Assembly: GCF_009865405.1 (NCBI RefSeq)
Contig: NZ_WWJY01000246.1
Coordinates: forward strand, 1-64,000
Reading direction: 5' to 3'
DNA from: Streptomyces sp. SID3212
GTDB taxonomy: Bacteria > Actinomycetota > Actinomycetes > Streptomycetales > Streptomycetaceae
DNA length: 64,000 bases
Shown here: piece after piece, positions 6,844-31,417 of the stretch
Layout of the letters: each line of letters begins with the position of its first letter
Position numbering within the stretch: the first letter of the stretch is position 1
Notes under the pieces: model-generated
What the model saw: only the letters and a program-made list of their open reading frames with translations
Told to the model about the DNA's origin: nothing
The model's database searches: none
Program-made: the position numbers and the translations under genes

Positions 6844-6872
6844 GTCTCCTTGTCTTCTTTCACTCGCCTCGG

Positions 6873-11056: not shown

Positions 11057-11236
11057 GCAGCCCCCGCCGTACCTGGTGCTCAGCACCGACTGCACCACGC
11101 CACCGCCACAGCCGGGCAGGGGGGCTCGGCCCAGGGGGTTCTGCCGTAGGAGACGGGCAAGATGCGTTGGCCTCGTACGGGCTGGGACGTCCAGGGAACG
11201 TATGACAGGCCGGCGCAACAGGGGAGGGACATCGGC

Positions 11237-14812: not shown

Positions 14813-14942
14813 GCTCGGCGCCGCAGTGATCAAGGACGCTGGCTGAACATCGATACGAACGTGTCCTGGTGCCGAGTTTCGACGATCATGGCACCCGGAC
14901 CGGGGGAGGGCTTGAGCTCGCTCGATTGCAGAGCAGCGAACG

Positions 14943-15419
14943 TCATGATCCGCTGATGCTGCCGTGCTCGAGGTAGACGGTCTTTCCGTCCGCTTTCGCT
15001 GCGAAGGCTGCATGGACTCGACGGGCGAGGCGGGGGATCAGGATGGTGTCGATCTGGTCCTCGTCGTGGAAGGCATGCTCGCCGATCTCCACGCCATCCG
15101 CGGTGATCTGGTCTCGATCTGCATCGGTGATGAGGCCGCCGTCAAAAACAAAGAGGAGTTTGTCGCCCTCGCTCGGGTGGGGTGCCCAGTCGGCGACGAG
15201 GAGGCGGCCGATGGGGGTGGTGAGGCCCAGCTCCTCCTTGAGCTCGCGGGCGGCTCCCTCGCTGGGGGTCTCCCCGGGGTGGAGGTAGCCGCCCGGGATC
15301 TCCCAGCCGTGCTTGTAGGTCGGATTGACCAGGAGGACGCGACCCGCCTCGTCGAAGATGAGCACGCCGGCAGCGGTGCGGGGCTGGGCTACTTCCTCTT
15401 GGGCCTGGGGCTCGCTCAT
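14943..15419 (-). CDS. NUDIX hydrolase
   Basis: A 158-residue protein with a complete NUDIX box, GYLHPGETPSEGAARELKEE followed by LGL, matching GX5EX7REUXEEXGU. Such enzymes hydrolyse nucleoside diphosphates linked to another group; the substrate is not evident. The chosen start is ATG 15419 (MSEPQAQEEV), because upstream codons read as low-complexity Pro/Arg and overlap the next gene's end in another frame. It lies 26 bp after the XRE regulator on the same strand, so both are probably co-transcribed, and this unit faces away from the biosynthetic block. A pathway or housekeeping role is possible. Confidence 0.88.
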   Translation of the reverse strand: MSEPQAQEEVAQPRTAAGVLIFDEAGRVLLVNPTYKHGWEIPGGYLHPGETPSEGAARELKEELGLTTPIGRLLVADWAPHPSEGDKLLFVFDGGLITDADRDQITADGVEIGEHAFHDEDQIDTILIPRLARRVHAAFAAKADGKTVYLEHGSISGS

Positions 15420-15445
15420 GACGACGACTGTAGTCGCTGCGCCCG

Positions 15446-16660
15446 TCACCCCACGATGCGGAGCCGCTGGGCGACGCCCGCGAGTTGGTGGCTCGGCTTG
15501 CCCTTCTGCTGTCGGACCCAGGCGGTCACCAGGTGGCGGGAGATGAAGTGGTAGCGGACTTGCTCGGGGGCGAGTTCCTCGGCGTCCAGGACGAGGGCCA
15601 GGGCCTCGTCGGTGCTGTAGGCTCGGGCGACTTCGAGGGTGTGGCGGACGCGACGCTCCAGGGGAAGGGTGGAGGAGTCCACCCGGGGCCCCTGGTCGGC
15701 GGCGACCTGGACGTCGCCGAGTTCCATCGCGGTGGAGATACGGTGGATGGCCACATTGGTGGGGCCGAAGGCCGTCCACATGTGGTTGGCGTCCTGGCCG
15801 AGGCGCTGCGCCGCGCTGTCGGCCTCGGCAAGAAACGCGCGGACGGTGGCCCGGTCGTCGAGGCGGGCCGCGGCCACGGCCCCGACGAGGAAGAGGGTGC
15901 CGTAGACCGACACGTAGGTTGGGGAGGCGTCGGAGAGTCCTCCCTCCAGGTAGCCGGCGGAGTCGGTGACGAGGTCGCGGGCAGCAGCGAGCCGACCGTT
16001 GGAGAGGAGGCAGTGGGCGACGGACCGGAAGAGCGAGCCGGTGACATCGGGGTTCCCCGACTCCTGCGCCGCCCCCAAGCCTCGATCGGCTGCCATCCAG
16101 GCCAGATCCGCCTCGCCGATCTTCGTCAGCACCATTGCCGCGCCCTGGTACGCCATCGCCAGCAGCGCTTTCGCTTGTAGCTTGGCGTCTCCCTCATATC
16201 CACGCACTGCCCGTTGCGCGTCGGCCAGGATGTCCGGGATCAGCCGGGTAGCCCGGGTGTACTTGGCATCCTGGTAGGCCGACCATGCTGACCCGACCTC
16301 GGCACGCAGGATCTCAAGGTCAGGGAGGTCATGTGGCTTGTCGACCGCAAGCAGGGGCGACATGCGCTTGTAGTCCATGAGGGCTTCGCGTAAGCGAGGC
16401 ACCGTGCCGGCCTGGCTGTTGCCGGCCCAGTCCAACAGCGACGGCTCAGCGAGGAGATCGCCGAGTTGCACGTCGAGAGCGTCCGCCAGAACCTTGATCA
16501 CCGACAGCCGGTCGAGATCGATGCGGTTGTTCTCCACCTTGCTGAGCCAGTCGGCAGTCCGACCGGCCAATCCGGCGAGCACCTCCTGCGGCATGCCTCG
16601 CCGCCGCCGGTACCAGGCGACACGTTCGCCGATGCTCAAACTGTGGGTCATCTCCTGCAT
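15446..16660 (-). CDS. XRE-family regulator with TPR-like C-terminal region
   Basis: A 404-residue regulator. The N-terminal 75 residues are a Cro/C1-type helix-turn-helix (YRRRRGMPQEVLAGLAGRTA, then DWLSKVENNRIDL); the remainder is helical and TPR-like with repeated Ala-rich pairs (AKALLAMAYQGAAMVLTKIG). This architecture is common among Streptomyces pathway regulators that may sense peptides or small ligands. Codon 90 is TTA (complement of 16391-16393, in PRLREAL), so translation should depend on the bldA tRNA. It is divergent from the HATPase gene over a 137-bp shared promoter region. Whether it activates or represses the neighbouring block is inference. Confidence 0.9.
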   Translation of the reverse strand: MQEMTHSLSIGERVAWYRRRRGMPQEVLAGLAGRTADWLSKVENNRIDLDRLSVIKVLADALDVQLGDLLAEPSLLDWAGNSQAGTVPRLREALMDYKRMSPLLAVDKPHDLPDLEILRAEVGSAWSAYQDAKYTRATRLIPDILADAQRAVRGYEGDAKLQAKALLAMAYQGAAMVLTKIGEADLAWMAADRGLGAAQESGNPDVTGSLFRSVAHCLLSNGRLAAARDLVTDSAGYLEGGLSDASPTYVSVYGTLFLVGAVAAARLDDRATVRAFLAEADSAAQRLGQDANHMWTAFGPTNVAIHRISTAMELGDVQVAADQGPRVDSSTLPLERRVRHTLEVARAYSTDEALALVLDAEELAPEQVRYHFISRHLVTAWVRQQKGKPSHQLAGVAQRLRIVG

Positions 16661-16797
16661 GCTTCCAGCCTGGCGTCGCCCGGTTCATGGACCCCGGAAG
16701 AATTTTCCGGGTTCCTCGCGGTTCATCCTCCTAGCGTTCTGACGTGGCATCAAGCAGTCGTCGGCACAGGCTGTTCCAGACGAGGGAGGCGTGGTTG
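16661..16797. promoter_or_regulatory. Divergent promoter region between XRE regulator and HATPase gene
   Basis: 137 bases between two divergently transcribed TTA-containing regulatory genes, the natural place for autoregulation by the XRE protein. GGGAGG (16784-16789) is the ribosome site for the HATPase start at 16798. I cannot name a defined operator. Confidence 0.45.
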
Positions 16798-17346
16798 ATG
16801 GACCGATCAAGACAGCAGATGAGGCGCGTTCCTCCCGCCGTTCCCGCTGCCGTGGACGGTCCGCGCGTGCCTCTCTACGGGTCGGAGCGGGACAGCCCGG
16901 CAGGGGAGCGGGGTGTTCCCGAGAACGGGTTACTCGACGTTGACGGCGGCTGCGTGGTCCTGCAGATGACGTTCCTGAACTCGCCCAGCTCCGTACCCGC
17001 CATCCGCGCCCTGGTGCGGAGAGTCGCCGACGTATGGGGATACGAGATGCAGTTCATCGATGACGCCGAGCTTGTTGCGTCCGAGCTCACTGCCAACGCC
17101 GTGCTGCACTCTCAGGCCGACGCCTGCGACTGCTTCGACGTGCGCCTCAAGCCGGGATACCAGCGGCTCAGGATCGAAGTCGCGGACACCGGCTCCTCCC
17201 TCCCCCGCCAGAAGGCGCCGGGTTCCTCGACGGAGACGGGCCGCGGGCTGCTCCTGGTCGAGGCGCTCTGCGGGCGGTGGGGCGTCGAGCGAGAGACGCC
17301 AGGAGGCAAGACCGTCTGGGCCGAGCTTGTGACGAGTACGTCGTGA
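16798..17346 (+). CDS. HATPase_c ATP-binding protein (anti-sigma-factor-like kinase fold)
   Basis: A 182-residue protein with a GHKL ATPase fold of the RsbW/SpoIIAB type. Visible are the N-box ELTANAVLHS near residues 97-106, the G1 box VADTGSSLP near 128-136 and the G2-like ETGRGLLLVEALC near 147-159. Such proteins are abundant in Streptomyces and often act as regulatory kinases or anti-sigma factors. ATG 16798 follows GGGAGG; a longer start at 16744 would have no such site. Codon 45 is TTA (16930-16932), suggesting bldA dependence. The partner is unknown. It leads the rightward block, 83 bp ahead of the radical-SAM-like gene. Confidence 0.88.
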   Translation: MDRSRQQMRRVPPAVPAAVDGPRVPLYGSERDSPAGERGVPENGLLDVDGGCVVLQMTFLNSPSSVPAIRALVRRVADVWGYEMQFIDDAELVASELTANAVLHSQADACDCFDVRLKPGYQRLRIEVADTGSSLPRQKAPGSSTETGRGLLLVEALCGRWGVERETPGGKTVWAELVTSTS

Positions 17347-17429
17347 GACGGGCAGTCCCAACAGCCAGTTACGGGACGGGCACACCGTCGGACTTGGCAG
17401 ACCCCGATTCAAGCCCCCTCGGAGGGTCC

Positions 17430-18521
17430 ATGACCACATCCTTGAGCAAGACGTCGGCGCCGCTCACACTTTCCACGGTTCGGCAATTGGCAGACGAGCA
17501 CTACGTCCCCGTGGAGGACGCCCTGCTCATCGCGATCAACCTGTTCGGGATCGCTTCCGCGCACGGCAGGCACAGGGCACGCGTGTCCATACGCCTCGCC
17601 TCCCGTCCGCACGTTCCATGGATGGTGATCGTTCCGCTGAACGCGCAGACATCCCCCTTTTCGTTACGGGGCGACGAGCTGTCTCTGGCCGGCATCCCGA
17701 TCGGCACCGTCGAGCGAGTGGCCGCCGACGAGGCGGTCGGCGGGTACTTCCGGGACGACGGGCGTGCGGCGACCCTCAATCCCAACGCCCGCAGCCGCTG
17801 TGTCGGTTGCGCGTTCTGCCCCAACACGCTGGAGGCCGCGGCTGATCCCCGACTGGCGGAGGAGCGCCAGCTCAGCGAGCTGCTGGCCGCGATGACCGAA
17901 CAGCACCCTCGTCGCAACCTGCGCGAGCTCGTCGAGGTCACCGTATCGACCGGTTGCTTCGAGCGGGAGCGTGCAGCTGTCGACCACCTGCTCGGCCTCC
18001 GCGAGGTGCTCGATGTGCACGGAGTGGGTGCCCGGATCGGGTTCCTCACCTCGGTGATCAGCAGCAGGCAGGCGTTCGAGGAGTTGGCCGAGCACGTGGC
18101 GCCGTTCGTGCTGCGGCTCACAGCGGAGTGCTTCAGCCGACGGGATCTGCTGCTGAAGGCCAGCAAAGCGATCCTGACCGCCGACGAAATGCCGCGCGTT
18201 CTCCAGCGGGCAATGCAGGCGGGCCACGGGACCTCGTTCACCTACGTCGTCGGTCTCGACACTCTGGAAGAGCTGCGTAGGGGCGTCAGTGAACTGATGC
18301 CCTTCACCACGGAGTTCCCGAACTTCCAGGTGTACCAGGCCCACAACGCGATCATGGCCGGGCTCCGGGCGGACGGTTCGGACACCCTGGACTACTACCT
18401 GCGAGCCAGGCAGGAGATCGAGCAGATCGCCGGGCCCACCGGCCTGCGTCCGAAGGCGTGGGAGTGCTACCGGCCTCTCTGGTACTTCACCTTCGGCGAC
18501 GAGAGCCTGGTGGCCCCGTGA
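17430..18521 (+). CDS. Radical SAM-like protein with a CX2CX2C cysteine cluster
   Basis: A 363-residue protein. Cysteines 124, 127 and 130 in RCVGCAFCPN form CX2CX2C instead of the usual radical-SAM CX3CX2C. After it, strand-helix alternation fits a TIM-barrel-type fold: VEVTVSTGCFE, HGVGARIGFLTSVISS, FVLRLTAECF, TSFTYVVGLDTLEEL and FQVYQAHNAIM. About 120 residues precede the cluster, a large N-terminal part. ATG 17430 is in frame after GGAGGG (17420-17425). Codon 79 is TTA (17664-17666). It overlaps the next gene as GTGA. I infer a [4Fe-4S]-dependent radical enzyme that builds the scaffold of a small molecule, but a non-radical iron-sulphur protein is possible. Substrate unknown. Confidence 0.72.
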   Translation: MTTSLSKTSAPLTLSTVRQLADEHYVPVEDALLIAINLFGIASAHGRHRARVSIRLASRPHVPWMVIVPLNAQTSPFSLRGDELSLAGIPIGTVERVAADEAVGGYFRDDGRAATLNPNARSRCVGCAFCPNTLEAAADPRLAEERQLSELLAAMTEQHPRRNLRELVEVTVSTGCFERERAAVDHLLGLREVLDVHGVGARIGFLTSVISSRQAFEELAEHVAPFVLRLTAECFSRRDLLLKASKAILTADEMPRVLQRAMQAGHGTSFTYVVGLDTLEELRRGVSELMPFTTEFPNFQVYQAHNAIMAGLRADGSDTLDYYLRARQEIEQIAGPTGLRPKAWECYRPLWYFTFGDESLVAP

Positions 18522-20563
18522 CGAGTCAGGCCAACGCGCTGTGGCGGGCCGCCACCTACGTCTCGGTGGTGCTTCTCCACCTGAACGACAACGTCCTGCT
18601 GGCCGAGCCGCTTGAGGCCGGGCACGTCAAGTCGCGGCCGTCGGGCCATTGGGGCACCGTTCCCGGCACCACGTGGGCCCTCGCGCACACCGTGCTTGCG
18701 GCAGGGGAAGCACCGCCCGGTCGCGCGGTCGTACCTGTATTGGGCGCGGGCCACGCGGGCGTCGTCCAGCTGGCGTTTGCGTGGCTGACCGGCGAGCTTG
18801 CCATGCTTCGTACCCAGTACTCCCGTGACGCTCAGGGGCTTGCTCGGCTCGCGCGAGACTTCCCCGAGACCGACGGACTCGGCTCCGAGGTCCATCCGCT
18901 CCTGGCGGCGGGCGCTGCTCCGGGCGGTTGTCTCGGCGGCGTAATGGCGTTCAGCCACGGCTTGGCCGCCGACGTTCCGGGCCGGGTCGTGGTTCCCGTC
19001 ATCGGCGACGGCGAATGCGAGACCCCTACGACTGCTGCTTCCTGGCTCGCGGCCCGCGCGCTGCGGAACAGCGCTGTGGTGCCCATCGTGCACGTCAACG
19101 GCTTCAGGATGGGTGACCGATCGCTGCTCGGCGCTATGGACGACGCGCAGCTCCGCGCGTACGCGGCTGGGCTGGGCTGGCGTGGCCGCGTGGTCGATGT
19201 CGGGGCAGCTTCGGACGACGAACACCGCGCCTTCCGTACGGCGCTTGCGGAGGCGCTAGAGGAGTCCGCTGGCGGCGACCGGGCAGCAGTGTTCCTCCGA
19301 TGCGTGAAGGGGTGGAGCGGTCCGGAGATCGTGGGGGGCCAACGTGTGCTGGGCACAGCGCACGCCCACAAGACACCGTTGAGCGGCGCCCGGTACGACG
19401 AATTCCAGCGGAAGCAGCTGGAGGAGTGGCTGGCCGCCTACCGGCCTGCCGAGCTGTTCGACGGCAGCGGGCAACCCGTAGGCGACGTCGCCGATGCGCT
19501 GGGCGCGGCCAGATGGCACTTGGCTGCTCGGCCTGCAAAGACGCCCTGGCCCAGTCCGTTCCACACAAGGAATCCCGACAGCGACCGGTTCGGGCACGCC
19601 ATCGCCAAGGTTCTGCGTGGCCACGCCGCAGTCGGAGACCTCCGGGTCTTCAGCCCCGACGAACTCGCCTCGAACCATCTTGCGGAGCTGCAGGACGAAC
19701 CCTGGGTGTCCGAAGTGCTGGCCGAAGAAGTTCTCCTGGGCTGGCTGTCCGGATGGACGGCCAGCGGCCGGCGAGGCGTTCTGATCTCGTACGAGGCGTT
19801 CTCGCCCCTCCTCGCCGCAGGCATCGTCGGGCATCTCAAGCACCGGCGCCTCGCCGTGGGCAAGCCGTCCCCCAGCCTCAACCTGCTGCTCACCTCGTAC
19901 GGCTGGCACAACGTGTACACCCACGGCGATCCCTCCCTGGCCACGATGCTCCTCGCCACTGGCGACCCAGCGGTGCGCATACTGACGCCGGCGGATCCGC
20001 GACGGGCAGCCGTCGCGTCGGACGAATCGCTGGGTTCCGTCGGACGCGTCAACGTCCTGATCGCCGGGAAGCACGCCACCGTGAACCACCCCACCGCCAC
20101 GATCAGCGAGGAGCAGAGGCGCGGCCTGGCCATCTGGCCGCACCTCAGCGACGGTGGAGAGCCCGGCCTGACGGTCGTGGTCGCCGGGGATCTCCCCGCC
20201 GAGGTCGCCACCGCTTCGGTGCCCGTCATCCGGGAGAAGCTCGGGTGCCGGGTCCGCGTCGTGAGCGTCCTCGATCTCACGGTCCTCGGTGATCCGGCCG
20301 TCTGGCCGCGTGGGCTGGCCGAGTCCGAACTCGACCGCTACCTCGGCCGGCACGCACCCGTGCTCGTGGTCACCCTCGGCCACCCGGCCGCGGTGTGGGG
20401 GCTGCTGGGCGGAAGGCTCGGGCGTCCCATCGAGGTCGTCGGCTGGCGTGAGCCACCCCAGCCAGCGCCGCAAGCGGCGCTGGCCCATGCGCTCGGTCTC
20501 GACCCGGCTGGCCTGATGTGCGCGGCCCGCCGGTTGGTGGACCGGAAGCGGGAGGTGGCGTGA
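18518..20563 (+). CDS. Phosphoketolase-like thiamine diphosphate enzyme
   Basis: A 681-residue divergent member of the xylulose-5-P/fructose-6-P phosphoketolase family (usually about 790-800 residues). Alignable landmarks are DNVLLAEPL, HIK-like HVKSRPSGHWGTVPGT, GAGHAG (normally GPGHGG), the ThDP/metal motif GDGECETPTTAASW with HVNGF downstream, KGWSGPEIVGG, RVFSPDELASNHL, EEVLLGWLSGW, SYEAFSPLL, SLNLLLTSYGWHN, NVLIAGKHAT and VRVVSVLDLTVL. Such enzymes cleave a ketose phosphate with phosphate to an acyl phosphate. Changes near the active site and the shorter length suggest a different ketose substrate or acceptor. GTG 18518 overlaps the previous stop; its own stop overlaps the next ATG. Context points to secondary metabolism, not sugar catabolism. 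Confidence 0.85.
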   Translation: MTSQANALWRAATYVSVVLLHLNDNVLLAEPLEAGHVKSRPSGHWGTVPGTTWALAHTVLAAGEAPPGRAVVPVLGAGHAGVVQLAFAWLTGELAMLRTQYSRDAQGLARLARDFPETDGLGSEVHPLLAAGAAPGGCLGGVMAFSHGLAADVPGRVVVPVIGDGECETPTTAASWLAARALRNSAVVPIVHVNGFRMGDRSLLGAMDDAQLRAYAAGLGWRGRVVDVGAASDDEHRAFRTALAEALEESAGGDRAAVFLRCVKGWSGPEIVGGQRVLGTAHAHKTPLSGARYDEFQRKQLEEWLAAYRPAELFDGSGQPVGDVADALGAARWHLAARPAKTPWPSPFHTRNPDSDRFGHAIAKVLRGHAAVGDLRVFSPDELASNHLAELQDEPWVSEVLAEEVLLGWLSGWTASGRRGVLISYEAFSPLLAAGIVGHLKHRRLAVGKPSPSLNLLLTSYGWHNVYTHGDPSLATMLLATGDPAVRILTPADPRRAAVASDESLGSVGRVNVLIAGKHATVNHPTATISEEQRRGLAIWPHLSDGGEPGLTVVVAGDLPAEVATASVPVIREKLGCRVRVVSVLDLTVLGDPAVWPRGLAESELDRYLGRHAPVLVVTLGHPAAVWGLLGGRLGRPIEVVGWREPPQPAPQAALAHALGLDPAGLMCAARRLVDRKREVA

Positions 20564-21618
20564 TGACGGAGCCCGCCCTGGTCAAGATCGAGGTTGTCCA
20601 GACGGCAGAAGCAACCTGCCCTGGTGACGACACCGTCTTCGTGGCAGCGCGGGGCGGCGGCGACGTCGGCTGGTACGGCCCTGTCAGCACGGAGGTGGGT
20701 CGGACCGTCGAGGCCATCGCCGCAGCCGTGGCCGGTACCCCCGTCACCGATCACCGGGGCCTTGTACGGCGGCTGTGCAGGGCGGTCGGCGGTGACCGTC
20801 GCGGGTGGCCCGAACAATGGGCCGTAGGCGCCGTGGACTGCGCGTTTTGGGATCTGCACGGACGCCTGCTGGGTAAACCGGTGGCTGAACTGCTGGCACA
20901 GCCGCGCGCTCGCACCCAGGTCCCGGCCTACGCTTCATGGCTCCGGGCGGACCTCACCAGTTCGGAAACGCCTGATGCGCTCGTGCAAGTGGCTGAGGAA
21001 GGCTGGGCGTTCACCAAGTGGGGCCTGCGCCGGCGGCCGGGACCGACCATCGCCTCTGAAGCCCGTGACCTCGTGGGCGCCGTACAGCGGGCCGCCCAGC
21101 ATCTCGGCACTGGCTTCGCCGTCGACGCGGTCGGCACATGGAACCCCGAACTGAGCACCGCGTTCGCTGCCCAGGTGGACGCCTCAGCGCTCTTCTGGCT
21201 GGAGGACCCGTTGCCTGAGCACGATCTGCCGGTCTACAGACGTCTCGCCGCCACCGGCCTTCCCCTGGCGGTCGGGGAGAGGCTCATGCCCGAGGAGGAC
21301 CTGCCGCGTCTCCTCGGCGAGATCCGGCCTGCTGCCCTCACGATCGACGTCGTGGGCTGCGGCGGGCTTACCCGTGCTGTCGAAATCGTTTCTGCGGCGC
21401 GGGAGGCAAGCATTTCCCTCTACCCACACGGCCGTTCCCTGGTACCCGGCATTCACCTCGCGGCGGCGTTCCCGGACGTAGTCCCGGCGGTTGAGTACCG
21501 GCGCCAGTGGGAGCCACGCCGCCAGCAGCTCTACAAGGAGCCCTGGACGCCCGCACACGGCGCTTTCCCCTCACCCGCATCCGCCGGCCTAGGCACCGAG
21601 CCCCGGAGACCGCAGTGA
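20563..21618 (+). CDS. Enolase-superfamily (mandelate racemase/muconate lactonizing-like) protein
   Basis: A 351-residue protein. Candidate Mg ligands are the aspartate in FAVDAVGTW, the glutamate in FWLEDPLPE and the glutamate in AVGERLMPEED, the three positions expected at strand ends of the barrel. The catalytic Lys region reads FTKWGLRRRPG, so one lysine of the usual KxK pair is kept and the second is glycine. A late YPHGRSLVPG supplies a histidine. It probably abstracts a proton alpha to a carboxylate (dehydration, epimerisation or cycloisomerisation). ATG 20563 shares an A with the preceding TGA, so translation is tightly coupled. Reaction within the pathway is unknown. Confidence 0.85.
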   Translation: MTEPALVKIEVVQTAEATCPGDDTVFVAARGGGDVGWYGPVSTEVGRTVEAIAAAVAGTPVTDHRGLVRRLCRAVGGDRRGWPEQWAVGAVDCAFWDLHGRLLGKPVAELLAQPRARTQVPAYASWLRADLTSSETPDALVQVAEEGWAFTKWGLRRRPGPTIASEARDLVGAVQRAAQHLGTGFAVDAVGTWNPELSTAFAAQVDASALFWLEDPLPEHDLPVYRRLAATGLPLAVGERLMPEEDLPRLLGEIRPAALTIDVVGCGGLTRAVEIVSAAREASISLYPHGRSLVPGIHLAAAFPDVVPAVEYRRQWEPRRQQLYKEPWTPAHGAFPSPASAGLGTEPRRPQ

Positions 21619-22055
21619 CTTCCACCAACGAAACGCTCCCCGTCACCGGAACAACCCGCCAGGACGAGCATGGCCTGCTGCTCGTCCTGGAACAGCACGT
21701 CGAAGGACACGACACCTTCCTCACCGGCCGACTCGAACTCGGCTCCAAGTCCGTCCCCGTGCGGATCATCAGCTTGGACGACGTCACCGTCCTGCGCCCC
21801 ACGGAAGCGGTCTCCGCCTTGGCCTCGCGTTGGACCGGTGTCCTGCACCTGCCGCACGGGGCACGCCAACGCAGAATTCCCGTCGACCTCACCGACGCGG
21901 CCCAAGAACGCGCACGCGACGTGGCGGCGCTCGACCCGGCCGAACTGCGCTATGCGCTGACGTTCCTCGGTGAAGCCACAACCGACGCCATCCGGGCAGC
22001 GCGCATCGAGGCCATCGTCTCCGCCCTGCCGTCTTACCACCCCGAGGCGGCGTGA
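21615..22055 (+). CDS. Hypothetical protein of the biosynthetic block (146 aa)
   Basis: Begins VTSTNETLPVTGTTRQDEHG at GTG 21615, overlapping the enolase-family stop as GTGA, and ends by overlapping the HAD gene start. The middle contains beta-rich sequence (GLLLVLEQHVEGHDTFLTGR, VPVRIISLDDVTVLRP) followed by helices near the C-terminus. I do not recognise a family, and no metal-binding or catalytic motif stands out. Its tight coupling on both sides says it belongs to the pathway, perhaps as a small accessory or binding protein. Base use matches its neighbours. Confidence 0.75.
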   Translation: MTSTNETLPVTGTTRQDEHGLLLVLEQHVEGHDTFLTGRLELGSKSVPVRIISLDDVTVLRPTEAVSALASRWTGVLHLPHGARQRRIPVDLTDAAQERARDVAALDPAELRYALTFLGEATTDAIRAARIEAIVSALPSYHPEAA

Positions 22056-22717
22056 TGACAAGGGCGCAAGCGTTGATCAGCCTGGACATCGGGGGCACGC
22101 TCGGAAGCGCGCAAGGACCCGGGCTCGCGGCCCGGCTGGCGGCTGCCTCGCCCCTCGGTCCCAAGGAAGCCCGCAGGGTCATGCGCGACGTCCTCCACAC
22201 CGTGCCCGAGATCACCGAGGCCGTGGTCGACAGGGTCTGCCTGGCGCTCCGCATCGAGCCGTCCGACTTCCCCCGCGACCTGCCTGTTGCCCCTCTGGTG
22301 CTGTTCCCCGGGACGGTCGAGGCCCTGCAGGCGCTGAGCGACATGGCGTCCGTCGTGACACTGTCGAACGTGACGTGCACCGAAGCCGATCCGGAGCGCC
22401 TCCTCGATCTGCTCTCGCCGTGGGTGGGCGCGCACTTCCCCTCCTGCCGTACCGGCTACGCCAAGCCCGACGACCGTGCGTTCCAGACGGTCGCCGAGGA
22501 GTGCGGGGTGGAGTTGTCGCGCATCGTCCACGTCGGAGACGACTGGGAATGCGACATCCAGGGAGCCACAACCGCAGGGGCGAGGGCGGTCTGGATCTCC
22601 CACGGCCGGACCATTCCCGACCCGCGCCTCCTCGTTGAACAGCGCGTACGGGTCGCCCACGATCTTGTTGACGCCGTTACCCACGTCCGGCACCACCTCA
22701 CACGGAGCGATTCATGA
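22055..22717 (+). CDS. HAD-superfamily hydrolase with altered motif I
   Basis: A 220-residue HAD-fold protein. Motif I reads SLDIGGTLG: the nucleophile D11 is present but the usual second aspartate (DxD) is glycine at position 13, as in some DxG-type HAD proteins that are not classical phosphatases. Motif II is LSNVTCT, motif III the lysine in GYAKPDD and motif IV VGDDWECD. An alpha-helical cap lies between. It overlaps the preceding stop (ATG 22055; GTG 22052 is an alternative) and the methyltransferase start (ATGA). It may be a phosphatase with poor turnover or catalyse a different hydrolysis. Substrate unknown. Confidence 0.85.
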   Translation: MTRAQALISLDIGGTLGSAQGPGLAARLAAASPLGPKEARRVMRDVLHTVPEITEAVVDRVCLALRIEPSDFPRDLPVAPLVLFPGTVEALQALSDMASVVTLSNVTCTEADPERLLDLLSPWVGAHFPSCRTGYAKPDDRAFQTVAEECGVELSRIVHVGDDWECDIQGATTAGARAVWISHGRTIPDPRLLVEQRVRVAHDLVDAVTHVRHHLTRSDS

Positions 22718-23505
22718 CCTTGTTCACCGGCACCGTCGGCTTCTACCGCCAGTACCGCCCGGGTATCCCCGAGGAGGTCGCAGTCGTCCTCGACCAGGCT
22801 GCCCCGCAGGCCCGTCCGCGCCGGCTGCTCGATGTCGGCACCGGTACGGGGCTTGTTGCCGAGTCCCTGCTCGGCCGGTTCGACGACATCATCGCCATCG
22901 ACAACGACGCGGAGATGCTCGCCGCGGCAGAGTCCGCGCTCCGCCCCGCCCTGCCGTCCGGAAGCGAGCTCACGCTGATCGAGACGACAGCCGAGGACTT
23001 CGTTCCCCCAGCGGGATGGCGGGCCGACCTCGTCACGATCTGCCGGGCCTTCCATTGGCTCGACCAGGCCGCCGTCCTCCGACTCCTCGACCAACAGGTC
23101 ACCCCGCACGGAGCCGTGGCCATCTTCGGAGACAACAGCTTCTGGGCCGCGGACAGCTCCTGGAAGCGGGATGTACGTGCCGTAGTCCAGGAGTTTTTGG
23201 GCGAGGAGCGCAGGGCGGGCGCCGGTACCTTCAATCACCACGACCGCCCGTACAGCGAGATCATGGCCGAGTCGCCGTTCTGCGAGGTCGAGGAGATCCG
23301 GGTACCGGTCCACCGCACCTGGACCGCCGACAGCGTGCTCGGCTACCTGTACTCCACGACGTTCGCGGCACCGCACCTCTTCGGCGACCGCCTCGGGGAG
23401 TTCGAGACCTCGGTGAAGGCGGCCCTTGCCGAGCACAGCGGCGACGACACCTTCCCCGAGGACAATGAGTTCCTCATCCGCATCGGCCGGAGGCCCCAGG
23501 AGTGA
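22714..23505 (+). CDS. Class I SAM-dependent methyltransferase
   Basis: A 263-residue protein with the SAM-binding motif LLDVGTGTGLVAESLL near residues 38-53, an acidic end of strand 2 in IIAIDNDAEML and a motif corresponding to post-I/II (ADLVTICRAFHWLDQ). The N-terminus FYRQYRPGIP is typical of small-molecule methyltransferases in antibiotic pathways. The acceptor is unknown; methylation of an O or N on the pathway product is the natural guess. Overlaps HAD (ATGA) and the amidohydrolase (GTGA). Confidence 0.9.
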   Translation: MTLFTGTVGFYRQYRPGIPEEVAVVLDQAAPQARPRRLLDVGTGTGLVAESLLGRFDDIIAIDNDAEMLAAAESALRPALPSGSELTLIETTAEDFVPPAGWRADLVTICRAFHWLDQAAVLRLLDQQVTPHGAVAIFGDNSFWAADSSWKRDVRAVVQEFLGEERRAGAGTFNHHDRPYSEIMAESPFCEVEEIRVPVHRTWTADSVLGYLYSTTFAAPHLFGDRLGEFETSVKAALAEHSGDDTFPEDNEFLIRIGRRPQE

Positions 23506-24299
23506 CCGCCATCCCCACTGCCGCCAGCCGTCGGCGCTACGGTCGGCTGGCAGCTCCGGATGTCACCAGCGCGCTCACGAAGACGTCGGTGCTGTGCCTG
23601 CCGATCGGCTCGTGCGAACAGCACGGACCGCATCTGCCGCTCAACACGGACACGGTGATAGCCGAGGCGTTCACCGAGCTCCTCGTCGAGCGCTACGGCG
23701 AACGCCACGACCTCTGGGCTCTGCCCGTCATGCCGTACGGGCTCTCACCGGAGCACGCCTGGGCGCCCGGCACGATGACGCTCCGGGCGGCGACGTTCCT
23801 GTACCTGCTGGACGAGGTGGTCCGCGAGTACACGCGGGCCACCGCCGCGGGGCATCTCGTGATCGTCAACGGCCACGGTGGCAACCGCGGAATTCTGGAG
23901 GCCGCAGTGCACGAGCTGCGCCTCGCGTACGGGGTGGAGGTGTGCGTGATCCACCCGAGCGCTCTGTCGCCCGTCCGCACGGAAGGGCGGGTCCCGGAAG
24001 TTCACGCGGGGGTGCGCGAGACCTCGCTGATGCTGGCTCTGGCACCGGAGGACGTCCACCTCGACCGCCTACCGACTGACGGTTCCCTCGGCTCCCAAGG
24101 CCCGGAAACAACCCGGCGGATCGTGTTCGATCGCGGGTTGACCTGGCCGTGGTCCTCGGGCGACGCCACTGTCGCCGCCCACGGTGTGATCGGCGGCGAC
24201 CCGCGTTCTGCCTCCGCCCACCACGGCCGGTCCGTTCTGGCCGGAGCCCTTGATGCCGCAGCTGATGTGCTCGAACAGCTCACCACCTACCGCCCGTAG
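23502..24299 (+). CDS. Creatininase-family amidohydrolase
   Basis: A 265-residue member of the creatininase family. Metal-binding and catalytic residues are visible: PIGSCEQHGPHLPLNTD (E39, H41, D50), NGHGGNRG and HAGVRETS with its glutamate. The family includes creatininase, the MftE-type peptidase and amidases acting in cofactor or antibiotic biosynthesis, all dependent on divalent metals. In this block it could hydrolyse a cyclic amide or amide-linked intermediate. GTG 23502 overlaps the methyltransferase stop. It ends 27 bp before the dioxygenase gene. Confidence 0.9.
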   Translation: MTAIPTAASRRRYGRLAAPDVTSALTKTSVLCLPIGSCEQHGPHLPLNTDTVIAEAFTELLVERYGERHDLWALPVMPYGLSPEHAWAPGTMTLRAATFLYLLDEVVREYTRATAAGHLVIVNGHGGNRGILEAAVHELRLAYGVEVCVIHPSALSPVRTEGRVPEVHAGVRETSLMLALAPEDVHLDRLPTDGSLGSQGPETTRRIVFDRGLTWPWSSGDATVAAHGVIGGDPRSASAHHGRSVLAGALDAAADVLEQLTTYRP

Positions 24300-24326
24300 A
24301 GGGCCGAGCCTTTTAGGAGTTTGCCC

Positions 24327-25073
24327 ATGGCCCTCACCGTCGACGACAAACACGACTTCCTGCGCGACGGCCTGATCATCAAGCGCGACGCCGTGGACCC
24401 CGCACTCGTCACCCGCGCCCGAGCGCTCATCGATGAATGGTGTCGGGAGGCGATGGACGAGGCCCTCATCGACCAGTACACCCAGCGCACCTTCGCTCCC
24501 GAGCTGGGCAGCCATCCCGACCTGCTCGCCCTCTTCACCGGCTCAGGAGCGGCGCAGATCGCCGCTGGACTCTGCGGAGACATCCAGCCGGTCACCACGG
24601 TCCAGGTCCAGATCCGCCTTCCGGAGCAGCTTCTCCCGGCGGCCCAACCGGTCAAACCGATGCACGTCGACGGCGTCGCCTGCCCCCACCTGGATCCGGA
24701 GGAACTCCGGACGTTCTCCCTGCTCGTGGGCGTGGTGCTGTCTGACGTCGCGGACCCCCGAGGCGGTGCGCTGCACGTCCAGCCCGGCGCTCACCTGGAG
24801 ATGTCGCGGTGGTTCCGCGACGAGTGGACCTCCGGCATCACGGACCAGGTTCCGCCGGTGATCGACGCCCAGGGCGGAACCCCGTTGCTGGGCCACCCCG
24901 GGGACCTGCTGCTGATGCACCACCTCGTGCCGCACGCCGTGGGCCGCAACACCGGGACCGAGCCCCGCGTCATGGCCTACTTCCGCGTCTCGCACATCCA
25001 CCACGCCGAGCGCAGGATCCAAGCCCTGCAGAACCCGTGGCTCGACTACCCGCCCCTGTCGGCACTGCTGTAG
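24327..25073 (+). CDS. PhyH-family Fe(II)/2-oxoglutarate-dependent dioxygenase
   Basis: A 248-residue protein of the phytanoyl-CoA dioxygenase superfamily. The iron triad is visible: H113 and D115 in PMHVDGV and H203 in HHLVPHAVGRN; R214 in TEPRVMAYFR would bind 2-oxoglutarate. Such enzymes hydroxylate or otherwise oxidise small molecules in many natural-product pathways. ATG 24327 has AGGAG at 24315-24319, and it is the first gene in the block without a stop-start overlap. A tailoring oxidation is the likely job; the substrate is unknown. Confidence 0.92.
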   Translation: MALTVDDKHDFLRDGLIIKRDAVDPALVTRARALIDEWCREAMDEALIDQYTQRTFAPELGSHPDLLALFTGSGAAQIAAGLCGDIQPVTTVQVQIRLPEQLLPAAQPVKPMHVDGVACPHLDPEELRTFSLLVGVVLSDVADPRGGALHVQPGAHLEMSRWFRDEWTSGITDQVPPVIDAQGGTPLLGHPGDLLLMHHLVPHAVGRNTGTEPRVMAYFRVSHIHHAERRIQALQNPWLDYPPLSALL

Positions 25074-25211
25074 CAGCGGACGGCATAGCCGCATCACCCG
25101 CCCGCCGACCGTCGTCGGCGATGGCTCCTGCCTCGGCACGGGAGCCATGCCCCGGAAGGGCCAGACAGGTCCGGGCCGACCTCACACTCCGACGTCAGAA
25201 ACGGAAGTCCC

Positions 25212-25859
25212 GTGCGATCGATCTCCTTAGACCAACTCAACGAAGCCGCCCGCGCCGTCGAAGAGGGTGGGCTGGTCATCGTGCCCACCCGACGCTGGTA
25301 CATGATCTGCGCGGACGCCACCAACGAAGCGGCCTGCCGCAGTATCTTCGACGCGAAACAGCGTCCTCTCACGAAGTCCCTGGTCCTCGTGTCCCCCTCC
25401 GCAGAACACTGCGAGCGGCACTTCGTCGTCCACCACGAAGCCCGAAAGCTCATGGAGGCATTCTGGCCCGGCGACCTCGCACTCCTCCTGCCGTGGCGTG
25501 ACGAGCAGACCAGCGCTCGGTACACGGCGGTCGGCGCCCCGGCCCTCGTCACCCGGTCTTCCGACGCCCTGGGAAGGCTCGCAGCCGCCGCCGCCGTCCC
25601 CGTCGCCGCGACCACGGTCAACGTCTCCGGAGACGCACACGTGGACGCGCCGGGACCGTCGATCACCATCGACGAGGTCCAGGACTTCCTCAAGCTCACC
25701 GACGTCCCGGTGTCCGTCGTCCTGGACGGCGGCGTCTGCCCGGTTGCCAACCACCTCGCCATCGTCGACTGCGTGACGCCGGAGGCTCGTCTGGTGCGCG
25801 TCGGCCTGGTCCACCAACGCGCCCTCTCGGCCGCCTTGGGCCGGGAACTCGTCGGTTGA
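25212..25859 (+). CDS. YrdC/Sua5-domain protein
   Basis: A 215-residue YrdC-fold protein with FDAKQRPLTKSLVLVSP, corresponding to the nucleotide-binding KxRP...KPL region, FWPGDLALLLPWR, and a TTVNVSGDAHVDAPGP segment that parallels the family's SAN-x-SG stretch. Family members make threonylcarbamoyl-AMP for tRNA or act as carbamoyl-adenylate domains in carbamoyltransferases. A copy inside a biosynthetic block, separate from a housekeeping sua5, suggests carbamoyl or acyl adenylate chemistry on a pathway substrate. Codon 6 is TTA (25227-25229), right after the GTG start at 25212. It follows a 138-bp gap, so an internal promoter is possible. Confidence 0.85.
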   Translation: MRSISLDQLNEAARAVEEGGLVIVPTRRWYMICADATNEAACRSIFDAKQRPLTKSLVLVSPSAEHCERHFVVHHEARKLMEAFWPGDLALLLPWRDEQTSARYTAVGAPALVTRSSDALGRLAAAAAVPVAATTVNVSGDAHVDAPGPSITIDEVQDFLKLTDVPVSVVLDGGVCPVANHLAIVDCVTPEARLVRVGLVHQRALSAALGRELVG

Positions 25860-25919
25860 CTCAATGGCAACGTCCAAACTGTCGGCGCCCTTTTTCGTCC
25901 ACCCGGCAAGAAGGCGGTA

Positions 25920-26507
25920 ATGAAGCACGAGTACGAGGCGAAGTTCCTGTCCGTCGACGTGATCGGACTCCAGACCAAGCTTGCGGACCTGGGCGCCATC
26001 CAGGTGCTCCCGCCGACGTTGCTCACATGGAAGATCTTCGAGAGCGACGTTCTCGACGACACGCAGTGGGTGCGGCTGCGCGATGAAGGAACGCGCACCA
26101 CGCTCACCCTCAAGCAGGTCACCGACGCCACGTCCATCCATGGCACGATCGAGATCGAGACCGAGGTCGGCGACCTCCAGGCGATGGCAGAGATCCTTAG
26201 CAGCCTCGGCCTGCGCGAGGTCCGCTACCAGGAGAACTTCCGCGAGGAATGGCAACTTGGCGGCATCGCCTTCGACTTCGACACCTGGGCCGGCCTGCCC
26301 ACCATCCTGGAGATCGAGGGCCCCGACGAGCAGCCCGTCCGGGAGGCCGCCGGCTTTCTGGGCCTCGACTACAGCGAAGCCCGGTTCGGCAGCGTCGACG
26401 GGATCTACAAGAGCAAGGCAGGACGGGACATCCTCGCCGAGCCCACCCTTCTCTTCGCCGACGGCAACGATGGAGCGGTGCTCGCTGCGGATACGTCAGG
26501 ACAGTGA
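25920..26507 (+). CDS. CYTH-domain protein (class IV adenylate cyclase / triphosphatase fold)
   Basis: A 195-residue protein with the CYTH signature ExExK as HEYEAKF at the N-terminus, then alternating charged strands (WVRLRDEGTRTTLTLKQV, GTIEIETEV, FDFDTWAGLPTILEIEGP) that build the triphosphate tunnel. CYTH enzymes act on triphosphorylated substrates such as thiamine triphosphate, inorganic tripolyphosphate or ATP. In this context it might remove or transfer a phosphate from a nucleotide-linked intermediate. ATG 25920 lies 60 bp after the YrdC gene. Specific function unknown. Confidence 0.87.
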   Translation: MKHEYEAKFLSVDVIGLQTKLADLGAIQVLPPTLLTWKIFESDVLDDTQWVRLRDEGTRTTLTLKQVTDATSIHGTIEIETEVGDLQAMAEILSSLGLREVRYQENFREEWQLGGIAFDFDTWAGLPTILEIEGPDEQPVREAAGFLGLDYSEARFGSVDGIYKSKAGRDILAEPTLLFADGNDGAVLAADTSGQ

Positions 26508-26526
26508 AGTTGGAGGTGAGGAATCG

Positions 26527-26868
26527 GTGACGGACGTCCCGCTGCCTCATGTCGCGATACCCGGGATAGCGGCGTTCGCGCGAGGCGGGCCGCCAGAACC
26601 GGCGACCACCGACGACGGCAACCAGTGGACCGACGGTTGTTGCTGGCTGTTCTGCGGCCAGCAGCGGACCCGAGTGCTGTGGATAGGCCCTGCCATGGTG
26701 GCAGGAGCGCAAGCTCCGATGTACGCGTGCGGACCTTGCATCCGGGAACTGCAGGAGCGGGTATGGCAAGCGATTCTTGCCGCCGATGATCCGGATGGAC
26801 GAGCGCCGGTCACGAGCCCTCCGGGGAAGCGCCACGGTGCCAGACACCGTCGCACTCGGGGTGGCTGA
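26527..26868 (+). CDS. Small cysteine-rich protein of unknown function (113 aa)
   Basis: From GTG 26527 the frame gives a 113-residue protein with DGCCWLFCGQQ and, about 30 residues later, YACGPCIREL. The spacing (CX3C ... CX2C) suggests a small zinc site or redox pair. GGAGG at 26512-26516 precedes the start and it follows the CYTH gene by 19 bp. The C-terminal part is basic (KRHGARHRRTRGG). It is easily missed because other frames also stay open here. No family recognised. Confidence 0.62.
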   Translation: MTDVPLPHVAIPGIAAFARGGPPEPATTDDGNQWTDGCCWLFCGQQRTRVLWIGPAMVAGAQAPMYACGPCIRELQERVWQAILAADDPDGRAPVTSPPGKRHGARHRRTRGG

Positions 26869-26929
26869 TCGGGCTGCTGAGGGCGAGGCTGTGAGGGTGT
26901 TTGGTCATCCTTTGGATGCCGACGTGGCG

Positions 26930-27170
26930 TTAGCTGATCCGCAGTCGGCCTCCGGCCTGCTTCATGGTGTGCACCCGCCGCTTCACTGGCCAGCCTTGCT
27001 TGTAAACGCTCGCCCAGTAGGTCGCCAGAGTGTGGTGCAGGAGGACCACGACATCCAGGCCAGAGGTTGTCGCGTGGCGATCCGTGATGACGCCTCCGTC
27101 GAGGAAGGTGGCTCCTGCGTCAGGATGCGAAGACGAGCGGACTCGCGGAACGACTGCGTGCCGCGCAGGA
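26930..27170 (-). pseudogene. Truncated nucleotidyltransferase remnant, paralogue of the gene at 28832
   Basis: The minus strand reads PDAGATFLDGGVITDRHATT, SGLDVVVLLHHTLATYWASV and YKQGWPVKRRVHTMK, aligning with PDARAAFLGGSVITDRRTAT, SDLDIVVLLHGAPAPYRLSL and EDDWPVELLVHTEE of the intact protein. The GGS nucleotide-binding turn is degraded to DGG and the first aspartate of the DLD pair reads G. Similarity ends on both sides and the frame meets a stop, so this is a fossil. It shares orientation with the intact copy; the isochorismatase and FAD genes lie between them. Confidence 0.72.
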
Positions 27171-27213
27171 CGCTCTCCGGGACAGTGTGGGCTGACGACG
27201 GGAGAACAACGCC

Positions 27214-27804
27214 ATGGAGGTTACGGATGCCGCGGTGGACATCGACAGCGCGGCCCTGATCGTTGTCGACGTGCAGAACGGCTTCACCAACCACAACAGC
27301 CGACACGTCGTTCCTGTGATCTCCAGCCTCGTTTCACGATGGTCCACCGCCAGCCGTCCCGTCGTCTTCACCCGCTATCGAAACTATCCCGAGAGCTCCT
27401 TCGAGCGGTTCTTCGGCTGGAGCCGGTTGCAGAGCCCACCGGAGACGGACATCGTTCCGGAGCTGGCGGACCAGGCTGCGTCCGCTTGTGCCGTGCTCGA
27501 CAAGGTCGGCTACACCCTGTTCACCGACGAGGCGGTCGCCCTGCTTGGCGACGCGGGCTGGACCGATCTCGTCTTCTGCGGCATCGCGACCGAGAGCTGC
27601 GTTCTGAAGTCCGCGGTAGATGCCTTCGAGCGGGGCTACACGCCTTGGGTCCTCACCGACGCCTCCGCCAGCGACGCGGGGCCCACTGTCCACGATGCCG
27701 GCCTCACGGTCGCCCGCCGCCTCATCGGACCACGCCAACTGATCACCACCGAGGACCTGTTGGCTCAACTCGCCCCGAGGCTCGAAGTCCCGGTGCTGGA
27801 ATAG
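27214..27804 (+). CDS. Isochorismatase-like cysteine hydrolase
   Basis: A 196-residue protein with the family triad: D19 in ALIVVDVQNGF, K97 in LDKVGYTLF and C129 in CGIATESCVLKS. Members include isochorismatases, nicotinamidases and N-carbamoyl amide hydrolases. With a YrdC protein and a creatininase relative nearby, an amide or carbamoyl hydrolysis step is plausible but unproven. ATG 27214 follows an antisense pseudogene remnant. The next gene begins four bases after its stop, so the two are an operon. Confidence 0.9.
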   Translation: MEVTDAAVDIDSAALIVVDVQNGFTNHNSRHVVPVISSLVSRWSTASRPVVFTRYRNYPESSFERFFGWSRLQSPPETDIVPELADQAASACAVLDKVGYTLFTDEAVALLGDAGWTDLVFCGIATESCVLKSAVDAFERGYTPWVLTDASASDAGPTVHDAGLTVARRLIGPRQLITTEDLLAQLAPRLEVPVLE

Positions 27805-27808
27805 CCCC

Positions 27809-28732
27809 ATGACAGCGATCACGGACCTGGTCATCGTCGGAGGAGGCCCGGCCGGCTGCGCTGCGGCGGTGATGGCCGCCAGCGTCGGCGTGCGGTCGGT
27901 CCTGATCGAGCCGGACGCCCTGTGCGCCAAGCTCCAGCACATCGCCGCCATCAACAACGTCGTGGGCGGCCGTGCCAGCGGGCCGGAACTCGCCGCTGCC
28001 ATTGCGGAGGACGTCGCTCGCGCCGAGTTGTGCGAGGTCGACCTCGGTGCGCGGGTGACCGAGGTCCGTGCCTACGACGACCACGTGACGGTCACGATGG
28101 ACACCGGCCGCACCATAAGCGGCTCTTACGCGGTCGTCGCGACCGGGGTCGGCCCGGTTCCAGTCTCGGTCGCCCCGTGGCTCACGGTGGCAGCGGGCAC
28201 GGACCCGCCGACCCTCTGGGGCGCCAAGGTCCCGGGAGAGGTGGTCGGTTCCCTCCTCGTGGTCGGCGCCGACCGCCCCCTCGGCACGTTCCTCCGCGCC
28301 CACCCGGCACTCGGCGCCACTGTCCTGGTTGCCTATCCGCCGGAGGACGACTACAAGGTCGACGAAGTGCGCGGTGATGCCCGGGTCACGCTGCTGCCGG
28401 TCGCCCGCCTATCGGTGAGTGAGGACGGCGGTTCGGCGTTAACAGTGGAGTGGGTCGACCGAGAAGACCAGCCCGGTTCCTGGACGGTCGACACTGTGTA
28501 CATGAACCTGGGCAGCGCCCCGGTGCCACCGCCTGGCGCCCTCATCCGCGACACGTCCGGCTACTGCCCGCCGGATCGCCAACACCCGCGCGTCATCACC
28601 GCCGGAGATCTGCGCTCCGCCCGCTTCCAGCGCATCATGGCCGCGACCGGCTCCGGCAGCCAGGCCGCGCTGCGGGCCTACTACGGTCTGCGGGGCGTGC
28701 AGTCGGCGAAACACGGCGGCTCTCCGTACTGA
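27809..28732 (+). CDS. FAD-dependent oxidoreductase (thioredoxin reductase-like, no redox CXXC)
   Basis: A 307-residue flavoprotein with the FAD-binding VIVGGGPAGCAAAVMA at residues 8-23, a typical ATGVGPVP-like second motif and a C-terminal ITAGDLRSARF that resembles the GD motif contacting FAD. It has the thioredoxin-reductase-like two-domain layout but I see no CXXC pair, so it is more likely a pathway oxidase or dehydrogenase such as a dithiol-independent tailoring enzyme. Codon 211 is TTA (28439-28441). ATG 27809 follows the isochorismatase stop by four bases. Last rightward gene of the block. Confidence 0.88.
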   Translation: MTAITDLVIVGGGPAGCAAAVMAASVGVRSVLIEPDALCAKLQHIAAINNVVGGRASGPELAAAIAEDVARAELCEVDLGARVTEVRAYDDHVTVTMDTGRTISGSYAVVATGVGPVPVSVAPWLTVAAGTDPPTLWGAKVPGEVVGSLLVVGADRPLGTFLRAHPALGATVLVAYPPEDDYKVDEVRGDARVTLLPVARLSVSEDGGSALTVEWVDREDQPGSWTVDTVYMNLGSAPVPPPGALIRDTSGYCPPDRQHPRVITAGDLRSARFQRIMAATGSGSQAALRAYYGLRGVQSAKHGGSPY

Positions 28733-28831
28733 AAATCGGTTCGCAGAGACGTTGGTGGTGGCTCGGCCGGGAGCCGACGTATATCGGGGAGGCGGTCCTG
28801 GGAGCGCAGGTGTGAGCGGGCGCTTCGCCGT

Positions 28832-29536: not shown

Positions 29537-29717
29537 GAGGGGATTGTCGGCGGCTTGTGGGCTGAGCGCACTGTGGTTTGTACCGGGAGGCCAGAGGCAC
29601 AGGCCATCGATGCCGGGCATGACCAGGGCCTTCAGCTCGGTGGGCCCACGTACCGGCAGCTCCGCACTCCACGGCCGTCTGGTCGAGGTACCCACCGGTG
29701 CGCTGGAGGTGGACGTT

Positions 29718-31412: not shown

Positions 31413-31417
31413 GGCGG

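Follow-up and report, generated by a model that had tools for sequence, protein, structure and literature searches.

A mobile nine-gene operon of Streptomyces sp. SID3212 and other Actinomycetota, with a radical-SAM-like protein and a phosphoketolase relative, that probably makes a small polar metabolite

Two kinds of described pathway partly resemble the locus considered here. In the octosyl acid (polyoxin type) and blasticidin S pathways, a radical S-adenosylmethionine (radical-SAM) enzyme acts on a sugar-derived scaffold, and the octosyl acid pathway also includes a phosphatase (excerpts of PMC5365060 and PMC3715490, compared by description only). In mycofactocin biosynthesis, a radical-SAM protein (MftC) and a creatininase-family protein (MftE) are encoded together in one actinobacterial operon. 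The present study concerns 64,000 nucleotides of Streptomyces sp. SID3212 (NCBI RefSeq assembly GCF_009865405.1, contig NZ_WWJY01000246.1, positions 1 to 64,000), hereafter the window, in which nine genes at 17430-25859 form a conserved unit. The reading we favour, and consider rather probable, is that these genes form a mobile operon dedicated to the biosynthesis of a small polar metabolite. To our knowledge, the octosyl acid and blasticidin S pathways have no phosphoketolase-like, enolase-type or YrdC enzyme, and no pathway with the present gene set was found in the open-licence full text of PubMed Central (subscription papers are outside this scope). A mycofactocin-like system was rejected: MftE is the best NCBIfam model for the creatininase-family protein (139.9 bits), but its cut-off of 172 is not reached, and the radical-SAM-like protein matches no NCBIfam model and hence no MftC equivalog. 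The creatininase gene also lies outside the core defined below.

The nine genes encode, in order, a radical-SAM-like enzyme (rsam), a phosphoketolase-like enzyme (pk), an enolase-superfamily enzyme (enol), a small protein (u4), a HAD-family hydrolase (had), a methyltransferase (mt), a creatininase-family protein (creat), a PhyH-type dioxygenase (phyh) and a YrdC-domain protein (yrdc); the first six constitute the core. An earlier note on this DNA had proposed a block of up to fifteen genes, thirteen of them on one strand and most joined by stop-start overlaps. Thirteen genes are indeed on the plus strand and two (NUDIX and XRE) on the minus strand, and the overlaps are real: four bases at rsam/pk, enol/u4, u4/had, had/mt and mt/creat, and one base at pk/enol. 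Gaps of 21 and 138 bases precede phyh and yrdc, respectively, and 60 bases follow yrdc. The proposed extent had to be reduced, as the nine genes recur together but the rest do not travel along. The CYTH, isochorismatase and FAD genes, which the note had counted as members, were found in none of the 38 other stretches examined (some of which stop soon past the operon), and the fifteen-gene extent was ruled out by the absence of the flanking genes beside the operon elsewhere. Apart from the radical-SAM-like protein, the families named in the note were recovered above the Pfam cut-offs (XFP_N/XFP/XFP_C, MR_MLE, HAD, methyltransferase, Creatininase, PhyH, Sua5_yciO_yrdC, CYTH, isochorismatase and Pyr_redox_2).

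The same note would have counted a lack of co-occurrence outside this strain as a refutation; the opposite was found, and co-occurrence is conserved in other genomes and plasmids. One phosphoketolase-like scan of species genomes yielded eight loci with 40-75% protein identity to the window. Seven of them carry the complete set of nine genes in this order, and the eighth (L005) lacks only the creatininase gene; the Nocardia puris locus (L009) has one additional gene between phyh and yrdc. Judged from this order, kept at 40-75% identity, the co-occurrence is not due to chance. The radical-SAM protein was sought in genome samples that overlap one another, and it occurs in 26 of 392 Streptomyces genomes (own genome included; 19 with most of the protein covered, 7 as fragments only), 5 of 394 genomes of the class and 3 of 396 of the phylum (own genome included in both), and in 1 of 129 and 1 of 40 genomes of two further groups, each being just the already known genome. 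Among plasmids, 8 of 72,556 records carry it. A phage-borne operon was rejected, as no phage record (0 of 50,697) matched the protein.

The 39 stretches examined comprise the window, 35 others and L078-L080. The full six-gene core is present in 28 of them, in seven gene arrangements, from Streptomyces, Nocardia, a Mycobacterium plasmid and other Actinomycetota. Twenty-four of these loci were identified by a 60% coverage rule, to which the window, L065, L078 and L080 are added; enol and u4 of L065 and u4 of L080 were identified by eye in the reading frames, a weaker basis. The other 11 stretches end at contig ends (L054, L066, L079) or have a deleted or fragmentary look (L050, L058, L059, L063, L067-L070). 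In genome G355 (L068, L069) the radical-SAM gene is in two pieces about 32 kb apart, which resembles the insertion of another element.

Class A, with the gene order of the window, includes 16 loci, among them L005 and the insertion-bearing L078. The operon of L078 contains two transposase-like frames, one separating rsam from pk (12201-13454) and one separating phyh from yrdc (4460-5368), and the second of these borders a yrdc match that begins only at residue 28. Class B (L046, L055-L057) has the order rsam-enol-u4-had-mt-phyh-yrdc-pk plus a second phyh, and class C (L043, L060, L061, L064) has rsam-enol-had-[GGDEF-like fused to u4]-pk-phyh-mt. Plasmid pNF1 of Nocardia farcinica (L042) carries rsam-enol-had-GGDEF-like-u4-pk-mt, a second methyltransferase gene and two more radical-SAM genes (L042:20865-22965), one of which is weakly viperin-like (41.6 bits against a cut-off of 180). 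On a plasmid of Mycobacterium intracellulare subsp. chimaera (L044) the order is GGDEF-like-rsam-enol-[HAD fused to u4]-pk, with the methyltransferase gene on the opposite strand. L065 and L080 share creat-pk-rsam-u4-phyh; they also carry enol, had, mt, yrdc and an ATP-grasp-like gene, which are arranged differently. The creatininase gene is found in class A (except L005), L065 and L080. The ATP-grasp-like gene occurs in three YrdC-bearing clusters (L009:8997-10142, L065:7885-9063, L080:8595-9698), the latter two copies sharing 27% and 37% identity with the L009 copy, respectively; family searches of the L009 and L065 copies gave nothing convincing, with only PF02655 at 17.6 bits for L009 (cut-off 23.2) and no match for L065.

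The nine genes also evolve together. In a comparison of 14 class A loci (all 16 except L005 and L078), their pairwise protein distances agree with a mean r of 0.94, as opposed to a maximum of 0.06 in 200 label shuffles. In five pairs of relatives, dN/dS is 0.06-0.45 for each of the nine genes, indicative of purifying selection on all of them in these pairs. The conserved order between species and the gene fusions supplement the distance agreement as likely signs of joint function. On plasmids, the phosphoketolase matches of at least 39.5% identity fall in seven records, which are seven of the eight radical-SAM records, and the next 13 phosphoketolases among the matches listed (best 20 of 221) have at most 33.4% identity; the eighth radical-SAM record, a Mycobacterium plasmid, is not among the phosphoketolase matches listed. 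The corresponding u4 search returned three of the eight radical-SAM records and no other record, which is weak evidence because it missed the divergent u4 proteins of L042-L044.

The firm conclusion, then, is that this multi-enzyme operon moves horizontally and encodes specialised enzymes, that its genes occur and evolve together and that active-site motifs are conserved. A biosynthetic role is argued from the presence of a methyltransferase, a radical-SAM enzyme and an oxygenase, and because the nine genes include no catabolic partners. The conserved unit contains no polyketide-synthase or peptide-synthetase machinery, nor that of ribosomally synthesised and post-translationally modified peptides (RiPPs). 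Several points weigh against a biosynthetic operon, whose product and order of steps are guesses. An exporter is not part of the conserved unit. The creatininase gene is missing from classes B-E and from L005. The trait is dispensable, given the deleted or fragmentary state of several copies (L050, L058, L059, L063, L067, L068/L069, L070) and the damaged phosphoketolase gene of L064. Selection was measured on relatives only, the window's own copies being outside the pairs, and the agreement of distances also reflects the shared descent of the loci rather than joint function alone.

The phosphoketolase-like thiamine-diphosphate enzyme (pk; 681 aa, 18518..20563, plus strand) has all three domains of a phosphoketolase, each above its Pfam cut-off (XFP_N 208.9, XFP 73.7 and XFP_C 41.9 bits). 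It scores 372.3 bits with the best NCBIfam phosphoketolase subfamily, short of the cut-off of 777. Compared to phosphoketolases (the own-genome copy L002; PDB 8io8 and 3ahc), it shares the three XFP domains and the thiamine-diphosphate motif, but is only 37% identical to L002. We compared 17 active-site positions between 28 copies of pk (L069 included and L064 excluded, so that the set differs from the 28 core loci) and 7 housekeeping copies. Thirteen of the positions derive from an excerpt of PMC10547157 and four from general background on these enzymes; they were placed by motif according to our own mapping. All 17 sites are kept in all seven housekeeping copies, which form one separate clade (support 1.000). 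In the pk family, H64, H97, G155, the aspartate of GDG, the following Asn, H320, S440, E479, Y501, N549, H553 and K605 are each conserved in at least 27 of the 28 copies, whereas three of the residues given in that excerpt of PMC10547157 are lost: H142 is Glu in all 28, Q321 is Lys in 27 and Arg in one, and Q546 is missing in all 28. R442 is kept in 25 of 28 (His in the window), and H548 in 19 of 28, where the alignment is doubtful. The window enzyme itself keeps 13 of the 17 sites, with H142E, Q321K, R442H and the missing Q546 as its changes. On this alignment pk is a specialised enzyme, with the thiamine-diphosphate sites retained and three sites altered family-wide.

The radical-SAM-like enzyme (rsam; 363 aa, 17430..18521, plus strand) has no match in Pfam or NCBIfam: the window protein does not reach PF04055, and its relative in L043 scores 21.7 bits against a cut-off of 29.5. 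The assignment made in the earlier note is thus borne out by the predicted fold but not by any family profile. The AlphaFold model has a mean predicted local distance difference test (pLDDT) score of 71.7, with the cysteine loop below 50 and a poor C-terminus. Its best structural matches are lipoyl synthase (Z 12.3 over 228 residues; root-mean-square deviation 4.3), MqnE (11.6) and NifB (10.8), and 48 of the 50 listed VIA-align rows are radical-SAM enzymes, the remaining two being designed proteins. Lipoyl synthase also heads the Foldseek list (E 1.6e-5), but pyruvate kinases and aldolases are present in it as well. Based on this model, rsam has the predicted fold of the radical-SAM superfamily, a partial TIM barrel. 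The canonical radical-SAM motif is CX3CX2C, and families with other variant motifs exist. In rsam the canonical motif is absent; C124, C127 and C130 (CX2CX2C) together with C176 are invariant in ten of ten diverse members. Although the predicted fold is common to rsam and to lipoyl synthase, MqnE and biotin synthase, rsam differs from them in this motif, in an identity of 10-14% over the aligned part and in the absence of a profile match. A tRNA-Ser call inside the gene (18360-18455) was treated as spurious.

The YrdC protein (yrdc; 215 aa, 25212..25859, plus strand; Pfam PF01300, 87.1 bits, cut-off 25.1) is a specialised stand-alone version of the housekeeping domain, to judge from its altered motif. 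It shares the YrdC domain with threonylcarbamoyl-AMP synthase (TsaC/Sua5/YrdC) and is related to solved structures, but PTxRWYM replaces PT(D/E)TVYG, and TIGR00057 gives 97.1 bits without reaching its cut-off of 123.2. The PT(D/E)TxYG motif lies near the amino-acid site of the synthase. The window and 22 of the 23 further loci that bear YrdC have PTxRWYM; in the remaining one, L078, the sequence is cut off at RWYM. The own-genome housekeeping copy (L081), the sole one usefully aligned, has PTDTVYG. Among the 28 core loci, 22 encode a YrdC protein and six a GGDEF-like protein, and no locus has both. This split partly tracks lineage. In the phosphoketolase tree, the GGDEF-bearing L044 groups with the YrdC-bearing L065 and L080, a placement made uncertain by long branches. 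The GGDEF-like proteins remain below the PF00990 cut-off of 23.8 (L042 21.8 bits, the L043 fusion 17.8 bits), and the GGDEV signature is present in the three looked at. GTP cyclohydrolase III and FAPy deformylase act in archaeal riboflavin synthesis, and a corresponding pairing of the GGDEF-like and creatininase proteins was considered; it was rejected on the ArfB model (23.4 bits against 180) and the ordinary GGDEV signature.

The enolase-superfamily enzyme of the mandelate-racemase type (enol; 351 aa, 20563..21618, plus strand; MR_MLE_C 100 bits, MR_MLE_N 33.9 bits) resembles sugar-acid dehydratases and has the residues that define its type. K152, D188, E214, E239 and H289 are conserved in all 13 copies examined and D262 in all but one of them; in this type the Asp-Glu-Glu set serves as metal ligands, and the Lys and the Asp-His pair are the acid/base residues. 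The small core protein u4 (146 aa, 21615..22055, plus strand) is predicted to form a beta-barrel with helices (model mean pLDDT 83.1), its C-terminal part being OmdA/YdeI-like. Alone it has no Pfam match, and a homologous fusion scores 20.3 bits with PF13376 (OmdA), under the cut-off of 25.6. Since its fold search gave no match with E of 0.001 or less (the best rows being V-ATPase N-terminal barrels), the fold assigns no function; relatives are fused to the GGDEF-like domain in L043 and to HAD in L044. The HAD-family hydrolase (had; 221 aa, 22052..22717, plus strand; PF00702, 43.9 bits) has DxG in place of DxD in its first motif in all 13 copies, which leaves a phosphatase role likely rather than certain. 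The class I SAM methyltransferase (mt; 263 aa, 22714..23505, plus strand; Methyltransf_11) is the most conserved of the nine, with 67-79% identity within class A. In the creatininase-family protein (creat; 265 aa, 23502..24299, plus strand; PF02633, 187.6 bits) the metal-ligand motifs are kept in seven of eight copies, L003 lacking the NGHGGN segment. The PhyH-type Fe(II)/2-oxoglutarate dioxygenase (phyh; 250 aa, 24321..25073, plus strand; PF05721, 36.2 bits) keeps HxD and the distal His in ten of ten copies of this type.

The earlier note had sketched a ketose phosphate feeding a radical step, followed by dehydration, methylation, amide hydrolysis and oxidation. Its ingredients are partly upheld by the radical-SAM fold, the thiamine-diphosphate site and the sugar-acid-dehydratase-type active site, all of which are kept; however, the phosphoketolase-like and YrdC proteins are altered where the compared housekeeping copies are conserved, and the sequence of steps therefore cannot be deduced from the family names. 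For a biosynthetic operon, the scheme we infer is as follows. The thiamine-diphosphate enzyme would cleave a ketose (phosphate) or transfer its two-carbon unit, unlike an ordinary phosphoketolase; HAD would remove phosphate, with u4 as a helper either of HAD or of the nucleotide-handling protein; the enolase-type enzyme would dehydrate or epimerise a polyhydroxy acid; the radical-SAM enzyme would form or rearrange a bond at an unactivated carbon; and the methyltransferase would cap the product. The scaffold may then be tailored in one of two ways. In the first, a YrdC-type activation, which would form a carbamoyl-adenylate on a non-threonine amine, is combined with hydrolysis of the creatininase type and oxidation by PhyH; in the second, which applies to other lineages, the GGDEF-like protein substitutes for YrdC. 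We put forward, tentatively and as a possibility less probable than a biosynthetic role as such, that this is an undescribed class of pathway, in which a six-enzyme core on plasmids and islands builds a carbohydrate-derived scaffold by means of its CX2CX2C radical-SAM enzyme, its enolase-type enzyme and its repurposed phosphoketolase. Depending on the lineage, the scaffold would be activated by a repurposed YrdC, through carbamoyl-adenylate chemistry on a new amine, or by a GGDEF-like nucleotidyl enzyme, and the result would be a new family of small molecules with a nucleotide or carbamoyl link.

The best-surviving alternative, though an unlikely one, is that the operon produces or alters a nucleotide-linked cofactor or an intracellular signal that the mobile element or its host uses, in transfer regulation or defence, instead of a secreted product. 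YrdC and GGDEF families both act on nucleoside triphosphates, and the mutual exclusion of the two proteins (22 and 6 of the core loci) would fit a shared nucleotide step. The operon also sits on plasmids and an integrated element, has XRE, HATPase and NUDIX genes close by and shares its island with a type I restriction system. However, the exclusion may reflect lineage only, nine enzymes are many for a signal, and the radical-SAM protein is absent from the phage records. In a scan of ten proteins against a defence library, the methyltransferase alone gave a match, which covers part of the mads_2 model (49 bits, E 1e-13), as a generic methyltransferase could; a defence system was rejected on this single partial match.

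Still less probable is that the operon serves to break down an unusual sugar acid or amide by combining enolase-type dehydration, phosphoketolase-type cleavage, HAD dephosphorylation and creatininase-type hydrolysis. The likeness of enol to sugar-acid dehydratases, with its metal and acid/base residues kept, would suit such a role, and an amino acid permease gene adjoins four class A loci; yet the core methyltransferase and radical-SAM enzyme have no evident catabolic place, a sugar kinase, an aldolase and a transporter are all missing among the nine genes, and the phosphoketolase is altered at three sites. Chance assembly of island cargo without a pathway, which would account for the failure to find the downstream CYTH, isochorismatase and FAD genes beside the operon in other stretches, is contradicted by the conserved nine-gene order, the shared evolutionary distances and the purifying selection, and we regard it as extremely improbable.

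As the earlier note had stated, the operon lies on an integrated island. This mobile element (6604..35355, about 28.7 kb, no strand assigned) is bounded by a 49-nt direct repeat (6604-6652 and 35307-35355, 96% identical) that matches one end of the tRNA-Pro(CGG) gene at 35307-35381, within which the second copy lies. Besides the operon, the island carries a type I restriction-modification set (HsdM 8349-9869, HsdS 9866-11056, HsdR 11162-14812), a DUF2637 gene, a relaxase-like gene (20.7 bits, under the cut-off of 24.6) and an integrase-like frame (34318-35433) with a Phage_integrase match and, unusually, a LacI-type DNA-binding segment.

Upstream of the operon are a NUDIX gene (14943..15506, minus strand; PF00293), a divergent XRE/HTH_31 gene (15446..16660, minus strand; Pfam) that is probably a local regulator, and a regulator-like HATPase_c_2 gene (16744..17346, plus strand; Pfam). 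A stretch of the XRE protein is weakly NsdA-like (26.2 bits against a cut-off of 75). NUDIX matches lie near the operon in 17 of 35 other stretches, in varying position and orientation. Proteins similar to HATPase_c_2 adjoin some clusters only, and the gene is outside the conserved unit. Downstream, on the plus strand, are the CYTH gene (25920..26507, 32.1 bits, above the Pfam cut-off) and the isochorismatase-like and FAD/NAD-binding (Pyr_redox_2) genes (27214..28732, Pfam cut-offs passed), followed by a nucleotidyltransferase-like gene (28832-29695; Pfam match under cut-off) that may serve self-protection. A gene of the aminoglycoside-phosphotransferase family directly adjoins the operon in two related plasmids (L041:22207-23199, L045:22195-23181), also possibly for self-protection. 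The permease gene lies downstream of yrdc in L004, L006, L007 and L008, and a conserved protein of about 280 aa is encoded downstream of yrdc in L006-L008, the L007 copy having no family match.

If the biosynthetic reading is correct, the operon represents a type of small-molecule pathway that would be expected to escape rules based on polyketide synthases, peptide synthetases or RiPPs. Mobile DNA would have carried such a pathway from one soil actinomycete to another; the operon is found on plasmids of Nocardia farcinica and of a Mycobacterium. The natural exchange of YrdC for a GGDEF-like protein hints at an activation step. Because the family-wide changes fall at sites that are conserved in the compared housekeeping copies, new activities would be directly testable on purified protein.

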